Shown one piece after another: positions 6,957 to 17,223 of a DNA stretch of 35,889 nt. Numbering within the stretch: position 1 is the first letter of the stretch; each line of letters opens with the position of its first letter. The translations under genes and the position numbers were made by a program. The notes beneath the pieces were generated by a model that was not told the origin of the DNA, did no database searches, and was given only the letters and a program-made list of their open reading frames with translations. The stretch is from Nitrospirota bacterium (GTDB lineage: Bacteria > Nitrospirota > Thermodesulfovibrionia > Thermodesulfovibrionales > UBA6898): assembly GCA_003252075.1 (NCBI GenBank), contig QKDO01000027.1, positions 1 to 35,889 of the forward strand. The letters are read 5' to 3'.

Positions 6957-6992
6957 AAAAAAAGGCCGCCCGGACACCCGGACGGCCTTTTT
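6957..6992. terminator. Bidirectional rho-independent terminator
   Basis: GGCCGCCCGG (6964-6973) pairs with CCGGACGGCC (6978-6987), ten positions with one C-A mismatch, around a 4-base loop. It is flanked by an A-run on the left and a T-run on the right, so it ends transcripts from both convergent genes: the 6529 gene and the hppA-terminated sulfate operon. Confidence 0.9.
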
Positions 6993-13178: not shown

Positions 13179-14432
13179 TTACCTCCTTGCGCTCTGAATG
13201 CTTTTGATCGCCACCCCTGTTGCATCCTGCACAGAGCGTGCAACGTCGACAGGACTCTTGAGCGTTCCGACTGCATAAATACCCTTTTTCAGTGAAGCTG
13301 CTGCGACAAAGCCGTCAGGCGTGTATGAGATGTCTCCCGGTAGCTTGGCTGTCTTTGTCGAAGGCACCATGCCGGCCGCAAGCACAACCATATCGAACCT
13401 TGCCTGTATCTTCTTGCCTGCCATAATATCTTCCGCCTCGACGATCACATCCTTCGTCTCCGGATCCTCCGTAATTCTCGCAATCTTTCCCTTGGTAAAG
13501 GAGACGTTCGGATCATCCTTAACCTTCCAATAGAACTGCTCGTACCTTCCTGGTGTCCGCAGGTCTATATAGAAGATCCGGGCCTTGGAATCCGGATACT
13601 GCTCCCTGATATAGGTCGCCTGCTTCATGGATGCCATGCAGCAGATATAGGAGCAGTAAGGCAAATGGTTTTCATCGCGCGAGCCTGCGCACTGCACAAA
13701 GGCAATGTTTTTTGCCGGCTTGTTGTCCGATGGCCTGAGAATCTTTCCGCCGGTGGGGCCATTCGGGGATGCGAGCCTTTCCATCTGCATATTTGATATT
13801 ACGTTTGCCACCTTGCCGCCTCCGAGATTGTCGAGCTTGGCGATGTCATAGACATCCCAGCCAGTTGCCAGAACAATGGCTCCGACATTGACTTGGATGG
13901 TCTGCGGCTTCATATTAAGATCTATTGCATCGTATTTACAGACCGCGACGCACTTGGCACAGGACGTCCCCTTGCAGTGTTTTCCGTCAATGGCATAAAG
14001 AAAGGGGAATGCCTGGTTATGCGTAATAAATGCCGCTTTGGTCTTGCTGAGGCCGAAATTGAACTCATTGCTCATCTCGACCGGACAGGCCTCTGCGCAT
14101 GCATTGCAGCCGACACACTTGTCATTTACAAACCGGGGGCTTATTTTAAGGGTAACGTCATAGTTGCCTTCCTGCCCCGAGATCTTTTCCACTTCAGCCT
14201 GCGTATAAAAGGTAATGTCTCCGCTGTTCTTGATCCTCTTATAGTTCATCTCCAGCCCGCAGTTCGGAGGGCAGAGCTTGGGGAAATACTTATTGAGCTG
14301 TGTCACCCTTCCACCAAAGAACGGCGTCTTTTCGACGATGATCACCTCGAAACCGGCCTCTGCGGTCTCCACTGCTGCAGTCAGCCCGCTGAATCCTCCT
14401 CCGACCACCAGCACCTTTTTATTTTCTGCCAT
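13179..14432 (-). CDS. qmoA: QmoA, HdrA-like flavoprotein subunit
   Basis: A 417-residue protein starting MAENKKVLVVGGGFSGLTAA, an FAD dinucleotide-binding fold. It holds Fe-S-type cysteines at CVGCNACAEACPVE and CKGTSCAKCVAVCK, and the HdrA-type segment FVQCAGSRDENHLPYCSYIC, parallel to the one in QmoB. The start at 14432 is chosen because AAGGAGGATAGAG lies directly before it. The frame is open upstream to 14564, but that extra part lies in the hairpin region and is not protein-like. QmoA is the soluble partner of QmoB in the Qmo complex that links the menaquinone pool to AprBA. It ends ten bases before qmoB. A 143-base gap with two strong hairpins separates it from aprA. Confidence 0.95.
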   Translation of the reverse strand: MAENKKVLVVGGGFSGLTAAVETAEAGFEVIIVEKTPFFGGRVTQLNKYFPKLCPPNCGLEMNYKRIKNSGDITFYTQAEVEKISGQEGNYDVTLKISPRFVNDKCVGCNACAEACPVEMSNEFNFGLSKTKAAFITHNQAFPFLYAIDGKHCKGTSCAKCVAVCKYDAIDLNMKPQTIQVNVGAIVLATGWDVYDIAKLDNLGGGKVANVISNMQMERLASPNGPTGGKILRPSDNKPAKNIAFVQCAGSRDENHLPYCSYICCMASMKQATYIREQYPDSKARIFYIDLRTPGRYEQFYWKVKDDPNVSFTKGKIARITEDPETKDVIVEAEDIMAGKKIQARFDMVVLAAGMVPSTKTAKLPGDISYTPDGFVAAASLKKGIYAVGTLKSPVDVARSVQDATGVAIKSIQSARR

Positions 14433-14477
14433 CTCTATCCTCCTTAAGGCAGGGGTTGATGTAACATGCAAAATGCG

Positions 14478-14516
14478 GATCGCTGGAGCCAAAACCCTGT
14501 TTTGTATCCAGCGATC
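14478..14516 (-). repeat. Hairpin 1 between aprA and qmoA
   Basis: GATCGCTGGA (14478-14487) pairs with TCCAGCGATC (14507-14516), ten perfect base pairs. Inside, CAAAAC (14490-14495) pairs with GTTTTG (14499-14504) around a 3-base loop, separated from the outer stem by a symmetrical 2-by-2 internal loop. It shares CCAAAACCCT with the hairpin next to it. No poly-T tract follows on the coding (minus) strand. Confidence 0.75.
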
Positions 14517-14535
14517 GGCATTGTGCCGGCGGGAT

Positions 14536-14567
14536 ATTTTGGGGAGGGCCAAAACCCTCCCCAAAAT
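14536..14567 (-). repeat. Hairpin 2 between aprA and qmoA
   Basis: ATTTTGGGGAGGG (14536-14548) and CCCTCCCCAAAAT (14555-14567) form a perfect 13-bp stem with a 6-base loop, nine bases after the aprA stop codon. The tip again reads CCAAAACCCT. The stem is strong enough to terminate or to protect the aprBA mRNA 3' end, but no T-run follows it. Partial read-through into qmoA or a processing site is the likely role. Confidence 0.8.
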
Positions 14568-14575
14568 GCTCTCAA

Positions 14576-16579
14576 CTATGGGTACATCTGGACATAGGGA
14601 ACCTTCTTGAATTCCCAGGTGTGCGTTTCGGCGTTATACTTGGAATTGGTGAAGCACTTCCAGTTTGCGTCATCGATCTTGTTGAAGTCCCCGCGGTAGT
14701 AGTAGCCGGGGTACCGGGACTCTTCCCTGAAGAGAATATGGCGCGCATGTGCCTCGACCGACAGGATCCTGTGGTAGTTCTCAAAGCACCTGAGAAGCTC
14801 GTGGAGGTCTTTTGCGGCCATCTTTGCTGCGTCCTCTTTGAGCATTTCGAGCTTCTGGAGACCTGCCTCAAGCATGGTCTTCGAGGTCATATACCAGGTC
14901 GCAACGCCTCCGAAATACTCGTCAGCGATCTTCTGGAGTCTGAGCTGAAGAGACTTCGGCCCGATATAATTCGGATTGATCGTAGGATCAGTTGTGTATA
15001 CTTTGTACTTCTCATAGATCTCAAACGGCAGATAAAGCTCAGCCGCTATCTCATCAAGAGACATCTTCGGAGACGGCTTGTAGTCTGCATGGTCGAGTAT
15101 GTAGGCAAGTGCGGACTTTGCAGCGATCCTGCCCTCCGCATGGGAGCCTGAAGAGAACTTGTGACCGGATGCGCCGACAACGTCACCGGCCATGAAGAGC
15201 CCGGGAACCGTGGACATCCTGTTGTAACCCCAGCTGTAATGCTCAGGGGTGCCCGACAGGTCGCCAGGGCCACTTACCCAGAAGCCTGCGCAGCCTGCGT
15301 GTGACCCAAGGAGATACGGCTCGGTCGGCATGATTTCCGAGGGGGTCTTATCCGGCTCGGTATTTGTTGCGGCCCAGATGGATGCCTGTCCAATAGCCAT
15401 GTCAAGGAAGTCTTCCCATGCCTCTGCCTCAAGGTGCTTCATCTTCTTGGCGCCTTCTTTGTCTCCCAGCTTTTCCTTGAAGGCAGCACCCAATTCGGCC
15501 ATTGCCGTATGGGTGTTCATCAGGATCGGCCCCTTGCCGTCCTTCATGGCTCTCATCATCAGGTGGTTTCTGATGGCGGTGCCCATACCCTTTGCATAAT
15601 CGCCGTAACGCGCAACTGCATCGTCAAAATATTCCTTATTGGCGCAGTAGTCCTCACCAAAGCTGTCGGTTGCCTTTGCCTTGAAGAAGAGGAACCATGC
15701 GCCGACAGGGCCGTACCCGTCCTTAAATCTTGCTGGCACGAACCGGTTCTCCATAAGGGTGAGCTCAGCACCGGCCTGCATGCCGAAAGCATATCCTGAT
15801 CCGGCGCTAAATACAGGGTACCAGGTCCTTCCCATACCTTCACCGACCGACCTCGGCCTGAAGCAGTTAACTGCGCCTGCTGTCGCACAGATCATGGCCT
15901 TTGCCTTGAAGGAATAGATCTTGTTCTCTCTGGTGCTGAAGCCGATGGCTGCAGCCACATTCTTGCCATTGGTATCCATAACAGCCTTAACGATAAATAC
16001 CCTTTCGAAGTGGTTCTGTTCCATGCCGGTTTTTTCCCGGTTGGACTTAAGAGCCATCTTTGCCGCCTCTGCGACGATGACCTTGTAGGACTCGCCATTG
16101 ATCATGATCTGCCACTTTCCGGACCTGACCGGCGTTCCTCCGTCCTTCAGGCTCGCCTTGCCGGCATCTCTTGCCTGGAAGCCGTCAAGTGAGAAACCGT
16201 CGTCACCCTTCTTCCAGATAGGCAGTCCCCATTCTTCAAAGAGCTGAACGGAATTGTCAACGTGCCTGCCGAGGTCAAATACGAGGTCTTCCCTGATGAT
16301 GCCCATCAGGTCGTTTCTGACATACTTGACATAATCAGCAACCTTGTTCTCACCTACGTAAGTATTGATAGCTGACAGGCCCATTGCAACCGCGCCGCTT
16401 CTGTCCGTTGCGGCCTTGTCAACCATAACGACCTTCATGCCCTTCTCGTTTGCCCAGCGGCATGCCTCAAAAGCTGCGCCGCATCCAGCCATGCCTCCGC
16501 CCATGATCAGGAGATCGCATTCAACTTCGGTCACTGGGGGCTTCTGACAAAATGAAAACGTACAAGTTTCTTTTTCCAT
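14576..16579 (-). CDS. aprA: AprA, dissimilatory APS reductase alpha subunit
   Basis: A 667-residue FAD enzyme that reduces adenosine 5'-phosphosulfate to sulfite and AMP, or runs in reverse in sulfur oxidisers. The FAD fold is LLIMGGGMAGCGAAFEACRW near residues 24-43, followed by DRSGAVAMGLSAINTYVG. The substrate-pocket side shows YAFGMQAGAELTLMENRFVP and, later, GDVVGASGHKFSSGSHAEGR. The C-terminus VPYVQMYP is typical. Length is as in other AprA proteins (about 650-670). TAGGAGG precedes the ATG, only 12 bases after aprB stops. Together with AprB it forms the cytoplasmic heterodimer that receives electrons from QmoABC, encoded next. Confidence 0.97.
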   Translation of the reverse strand: MEKETCTFSFCQKPPVTEVECDLLIMGGGMAGCGAAFEACRWANEKGMKVVMVDKAATDRSGAVAMGLSAINTYVGENKVADYVKYVRNDLMGIIREDLVFDLGRHVDNSVQLFEEWGLPIWKKGDDGFSLDGFQARDAGKASLKDGGTPVRSGKWQIMINGESYKVIVAEAAKMALKSNREKTGMEQNHFERVFIVKAVMDTNGKNVAAAIGFSTRENKIYSFKAKAMICATAGAVNCFRPRSVGEGMGRTWYPVFSAGSGYAFGMQAGAELTLMENRFVPARFKDGYGPVGAWFLFFKAKATDSFGEDYCANKEYFDDAVARYGDYAKGMGTAIRNHLMMRAMKDGKGPILMNTHTAMAELGAAFKEKLGDKEGAKKMKHLEAEAWEDFLDMAIGQASIWAATNTEPDKTPSEIMPTEPYLLGSHAGCAGFWVSGPGDLSGTPEHYSWGYNRMSTVPGLFMAGDVVGASGHKFSSGSHAEGRIAAKSALAYILDHADYKPSPKMSLDEIAAELYLPFEIYEKYKVYTTDPTINPNYIGPKSLQLRLQKIADEYFGGVATWYMTSKTMLEAGLQKLEMLKEDAAKMAAKDLHELLRCFENYHRILSVEAHARHILFREESRYPGYYYRGDFNKIDDANWKCFTNSKYNAETHTWEFKKVPYVQMYP

Positions 16580-17011: not shown

Positions 17012-17048
17012 ATCCCTAACCTCCTGTAAAAAATTTAAACATATAGTT

Positions 17049-17066
17049 TGCCTGAAACATCAGGCA
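17049..17066. repeat. Short palindrome in the aprB leader
   Basis: TGCCTGA-AACA-TCAGGCA is a perfect 7-bp inverted repeat with a 4-base centre, about 40 bases before the aprB start. It could be a small hairpin or a dimeric regulator site; no family consensus that I know matches it. Confidence 0.45.
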
Positions 17067-17110
17067 TGAAACGCGAACAGTACCTTTCACCCCCTCTCAA
17101 TCAGTGGTGA

Positions 17111-17152
17111 GTGGCTGGTGCCGTGCTCTTCTGCTGAAACTGCACCAGCCAC
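17111..17152 (-). repeat. Hairpin between sat and aprB
   Basis: GTGGCTGGTGC (17111-17121) and GCACCAGCCAC (17142-17152) form a perfect 11-bp stem with a 20-base loop, about 70 bases after the sat stop and 100 before aprB. No T-run follows on the minus strand. Very short open frames overlap it, but none is convincing. Confidence 0.65.
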
Positions 17153-17223
17153 AGACACTTCCTGTCATTTATGCACCTTCTGAGCATTTATGTGTCTTGA
17201 TCGCTACCTTCTCGGTCATGAAT

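Follow-up and report, generated by a model that had tools for sequence, protein, structure and literature searches.

Conserved hairpins between aprA and qmoA in sulfate reducers may mark a step between two expression levels

Results

Two hairpins lie between aprA and qmoA

Sulfate reducers almost always have a strong hairpin just past aprA, often followed by a second, lineage-specific hairpin, and the conserved feature at the aprA-qmoA boundary is structure. Both hairpins are found in the window, the 35,889-nt stretch of DNA analyzed here. On present evidence, we think it somewhat more probable than the alternatives combined that the first one (hairpin A) serves as a read-through or protective hairpin at the 3′ end of aprBA and the second one (hairpin B) as a qmoA leader, with aprBA expressed at a higher level than qmoABC.

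The window, contig C60, belongs to a 2.86-Mb genome comprising 146 contigs; among named contigs, the nearest matches to its QmoA come from Nitrospirota MAGs. The genes on the minus strand, which we take from family knowledge and homology to be sat, aprB, aprA, qmoA, qmoB, qmoC, a CBS-domain gene, and hppA, follow each other in this order. The features discussed below are as follows:

14576-16579, minus strand: aprA (APS reductase alpha), the upstream gene
14433-14575, minus strand: the aprA-qmoA gap, 143 nt
14536-14567, minus strand: hairpin A, putative 3′-end element of the aprBA mRNA, based on folding, conserved position, and covariation
14528-14535, minus strand: AUAUCCCG, directly past hairpin A, the place of the U-tract in relatives, with the U-tract absent here
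14468-14526, minus strand: hairpin B, structured leader upstream of qmoA, based on folding and covariation
14433-14452, minus strand: CTGCCTTAAGGAGGATAGAG, the conserved CTGCC and Shine-Dalgarno sequence of qmoA
13179-14432, minus strand: qmoA, the downstream gene
6957-6992, minus strand: canonical intrinsic terminator after hppA (15-bp hairpin and T7), used for comparison

An earlier note on this DNA had described a 143-base gap with two strong hairpins. The length is correct, and the hairpins are real and far outside chance: the folding energy of the gap region is -72.2 kcal/mol, compared with -46.5 ± 3.8 kcal/mol for shuffled sequences (z = -6.8; 0/200 shuffles as good). Elsewhere in the operon, the sat-aprB gap (17012-17223; z = -2.7) holds another strong interrupted hairpin, GTGGCTGGTGC...GCACCAGCCAC (17111-17152; -23.9 kcal/mol), about 70 nt past the sat stop. 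A CRP/HcpR-type operator is known at Desulfovibrio sat and apsAB (PMC545781); a site scan found none in the aprA-qmoA gap and no excess of such sites across the window.

The hairpin past aprA is conserved in position and covaries

The aprA-qmoA gaps of relatives were pulled with QmoA from the genus, the family, named genomes, and the phylum of a Syntrophobacterales MAG (called Desulfobacterota). Hairpins of -15 kcal/mol or below within the first 75 nt past the aprA stop were counted as strong. Such a hairpin is present in 86 of 88 distinct gaps, mostly from Nitrospirota, with a median start at +12 nt, compared with 1.4% of dinucleotide shuffles. The same is true for 44 of 52 Desulfobacterota gaps, where the hairpin often takes the form CTCCAGGCGCC...GGCGCCTGGAG-TTTTT. 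In control gaps of at least 50 nt from the same operon, strong hairpins occurred in 1/20 cases for sat-aprB and in 5/37 cases for qmoB-qmoC; most of the remaining junctions are too short for this comparison.

In the window, folding confirmed the perfect 13-bp stem that had been claimed for hairpin A and added a U-G closing pair (14 pairs in total; -23.5 kcal/mol); the hairpin starts 9 nt past the aprA stop. Several other genera of the family have a wholly different stem at this position, for example GTGCCCAGGGC. The core GGGAGGG...CCCTCCC is rare, with one to five copies per genome where present, and was found at 37 loci that allowed an analysis of covariation. Around this invariant core, outer pairs 1 to 4 covary, being Watson-Crick in 36, 32, 30, and 26 of the 37 loci, respectively, and each position uses three or four types of Watson-Crick pair. 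Shuffling of columns gave p ≤ 0.0004, which overstates certainty because the relatives are not independent; the covariation numbers for both hairpins are strong but are not probabilities.

Two further observations concern the genes that flank the gap. AprA identities to the window's protein fall into two classes, approximately 96-97% or 75-78%, that do not track qmoA identity (L012, L042, and L044 versus L013-L015, L038-L041, and L043), which suggests recombination or transfer of aprBA alone inside the family. One genus member has, besides the copy adjoining aprA, a second qmoA with 81% identity (L016, G007:C149) on a contig with a qmoB-like match.

Hairpin A occupies the place of a terminator and lacks the U-tract

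With its GC-rich stem, short loop, and location downstream of a stop codon, hairpin A resembles an intrinsic terminator, except that the best 8 nt past the stem contain only two T. The earlier observation that neither hairpin has a poly-T tail holds for the minus strand of the window. The conclusion drawn from it, that these are not ordinary terminators, is valid within the window, whereas in position hairpin A matches the ordinary U-tract terminators of many relatives. When a U-tract is defined as at least six T in the 8 nt past the stem, which applies to 4.5% of random gap places, the hairpin is followed by one in 34 of 87 relatives, chiefly Nitrospirota, and in 33 of 49 from Desulfobacterota. 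Judged by these features, hairpin A is an ordinary intrinsic terminator in many relatives. Within the window's genus, four genomes have six to eight T (G004-G007) and four, including that of the window, have two to four (G000-G003), and the sister genera are mostly T-rich past the stem, a pattern most simply explained by loss or weakening of the U-tract in the clade of the window. The ancestral form of hairpin A was probably an intrinsic terminator consisting of a GC hairpin and a U-tract. The organism itself does use U-tracts, as the T7 terminator at the operon end after hppA indicates.

An alternative is that hairpin A terminates transcription, completely or in part, despite the missing U-tract, and that qmoABC is transcribed from an unrecognised promoter of its own, with hairpin B in its 5′ UTR. 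The positional equivalence with U-tract terminators favors the first element of this scenario. As to the second, nine more distant relatives (L086, L089, L090, L097, L098, L100, L101, L107, and L110) carry, past hairpin A and about 90 nt before qmoA, a perfect extended -10 sequence, TGCTATAAT (expected, 0.8%). These nine also share a long, conserved hairpin in the leader, AGTAAGTCAAAAAGAG...CTCTTTGTGACTTACTGCC, which is unlike hairpin B and lies directly before the Shine-Dalgarno sequence of qmoA, ending in ACTTACTGCC; this combination suggests that aprBA and qmo are transcribed separately there. In the window, however, the two T past hairpin A contrast with the T7 at the operon end, the gap is only 143 nt long, and no sigma70-type promoter-like site was found on the minus strand within the gap. 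Across the gaps, U-tracts and sigma70 -35/-10 promoters were not associated, a single gap reaching 10/12. We therefore regard termination at hairpin A followed by a new start as unlikely, if still deserving attention.

Hairpin B is locus-specific and probably a leader structure

Hairpin B had been described as a 10+6-bp hairpin at 14478-14516. That hairpin is present, but the full structure is longer, extending over 14468-14526 with arms at 14468-14495 and 14499-14526 and 24 pairs (-33.3 kcal/mol). It is interrupted, with three stem segments and a 3-nt loop, and ends approximately 15 nt upstream of the CTGCC-Shine-Dalgarno block. Among 16 genomes, 13 of the 24 pairs show two-sided changes, and the covariation score of 0.287, compared with 0.153 ± 0.015, was reached by 0/500 shuffles and lies above all slid registers. 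The earlier note had proposed to look for covariation in the gap across relatives, and both these pairs and the outer pairs of hairpin A bear out the expectation. G-U cells (22) and A-C cells (17) are nearly equal in number, and the base changes thus do not prove a function of the mRNA strand over one of the DNA.

Hairpin B, or both hairpins, could be a cis-regulatory RNA or a protein-binding site that acts as a signal-sensing switch for qmoABC. The restriction of the covarying structure to the qmoA leader and the conservation of the CTGCC-Shine-Dalgarno block are consistent with this idea, as is the different leader hairpin of the sister lineage, which likewise ends in ACTTACTGCC by the Shine-Dalgarno sequence. 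Searches of Rfam, however, gave no match to the gap at the gathering threshold, and the 11 matches from a permissive search all scored far below it; 10 of the 11 were microRNA families, which any hairpin would draw. A ligand-binding structure is further disfavored by the lack of conserved bulges, junctions, and loops in what is a plain interrupted hairpin of fast-changing sequence. A switch of this kind is, in our view, improbable. About equally speculative is the idea that hairpin B and the AGTAAGT...ACTTACTGCC element of the sister lineage represent an undescribed qmoA regulatory leader in Nitrospirota, which would control the quinone-linked supply of electrons to APS reductase in concert with a tunable terminator or protector hairpin after aprA.

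We also considered a mobile or dispersed palindromic repeat of the REP or MITE type that had landed in the gap. A few relatives (for example, L063 and L072) have TGTCATTCCCGCGAAAG-type palindromes resembling a common intergenic repeat in the slot of hairpin B, which indicates that this slot tolerates substitution by other structures. For hairpin B itself, BLAST and a covariance model matched the aprA-qmoA locus only, the latter in 15 family genomes with one marginal extra match (G018:C52, E = 2e-4); in each genome, the scoring covered the best 150 of 400-1400 candidates. At this sensitivity, both hairpins are locus-specific rather than present in many genome copies, and even the core of hairpin A is rare, so that the intergenic repeat family envisaged earlier was rejected, and an origin of hairpin B as a mobile repeat appears very improbable.

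The sequence shared by the two tips looks like a coincidence

The shared tip (CCAAAACCCT/AGGGTTTTGG) had been taken as a hint of a common binding partner, either an RNA-binding protein or a small RNA. AGGGTTTTGG does occur literally in both hairpins, once in each, and these are its only two copies in the window (expected, 0.07); a repeat as long as this 10-mer, here within 143 nt, arose in 0.9% of shuffles. The structural positions differ, however: in hairpin A, AGGG belongs to the stem and UUUUGG to the loop, whereas in hairpin B, AGG forms the loop and GUUUUG belongs to the stem, so that the hairpins do not display the same loop, as a conserved target pair would. Both copies are kept only in the window's genome (G000) and its nearest relative (G001), the other relatives examined having one or none, and 16 of 88 gaps contain some 10-nt repeat. 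A search of the genome, suggested earlier as a check, yielded seven copies, and the five outside the gap are not in comparable hairpins. The shared tip was discarded as a functional motif; it looks like a coincidence, and a common binding site is barely credible.

Discussion

AprBA and QmoABC act jointly and are thought to be needed in unequal amounts, with more AprBA required than membrane-bound Qmo complex. The favored hypothesis is still the earlier proposal that structures in the gap set the ratio of APS reductase to Qmo, whether by partial termination, by RNase protection, or by processing; the shared-loop and repeat-family ideas fall. A conserved, covarying structure at the boundary fits this proposal. 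In sequence, a protective hairpin is hard to tell from a leaky terminator. Across sulfate reducers, the hairpin past aprA most likely marks the end of an abundant APS reductase message, beyond which less Qmo would be made.

In the preferred reading, with hairpin A as the aprBA 3′-end element and hairpin B as the qmoA leader, the gap would be the border between two expression levels along one sulfate-reduction transcript. Because the U-tract was lost in the window's clade, RNA polymerase would pass hairpin A and continue into qmoABC-hppA. The transcript could then be cleaved in the gap or decay from its 3′ side until hairpin A stops the 3′-5′ exonucleases, and aprBA would be stabilized. Hairpin B, as the structured 5′ leader of qmoA, probably influences how the qmo segment is processed or how its 5′ end is formed. 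The expected outcome is abundant AprBA and scarcer Qmo.

The presence of a conserved 3′ hairpin in Nitrospirota and Desulfobacterota, grading from terminator to plain hairpin, suggests that, in dissimilatory sulfate reduction, the AprBA:Qmo ratio is set by RNA 3′-end elements, and makes the boundary hairpin a simple, testable target. Although the genes are adjacent, the abundance of apr transcripts in metatranscriptomes does not have to follow that of qmo transcripts. Among the full-text papers searched, none brings together aprBA, qmoABC, and a stem-loop.

Among known systems, REP/BIME and MITE palindromes share with the gap hairpins that they are palindromic, intergenic, and probably cotranscribed, but the gap hairpins are not repeated in the genome. 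Intrinsic (Rho-independent) terminators resemble hairpin A in position and in the GC-rich stem, and many orthologous loci have the U-tract; hairpin A of the window lacks it, and the genes downstream lie in the same orientation and belong to the same pathway. The cip-cel cellulosome operon has stem-loops of selective RNA processing and stabilisation, SRPS (PMC4423207), which likewise are intercistronic, end highly expressed genes, and keep their structure in orthologous operons, as the gap hairpins do at orthologous junctions; the operon, the phylum, and the sequences are different ones. In differentially decaying operons, such as E. coli malE-malF and others, U-tract-less 3′ hairpins are found on stabilized upstream cistrons (Dar and Sorek 2018; PMC5927463). 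Hairpin A is similarly a stable, U-tract-less hairpin right past an upstream cistron that is expected to be the more abundant one. Whereas 3′ ends and half-lives were measured in those systems, the gap hairpins are defined by sequence and covariation, and the apr-qmo relatives form a graded series that includes true terminators. The gap hairpins are a conserved element of a known kind.
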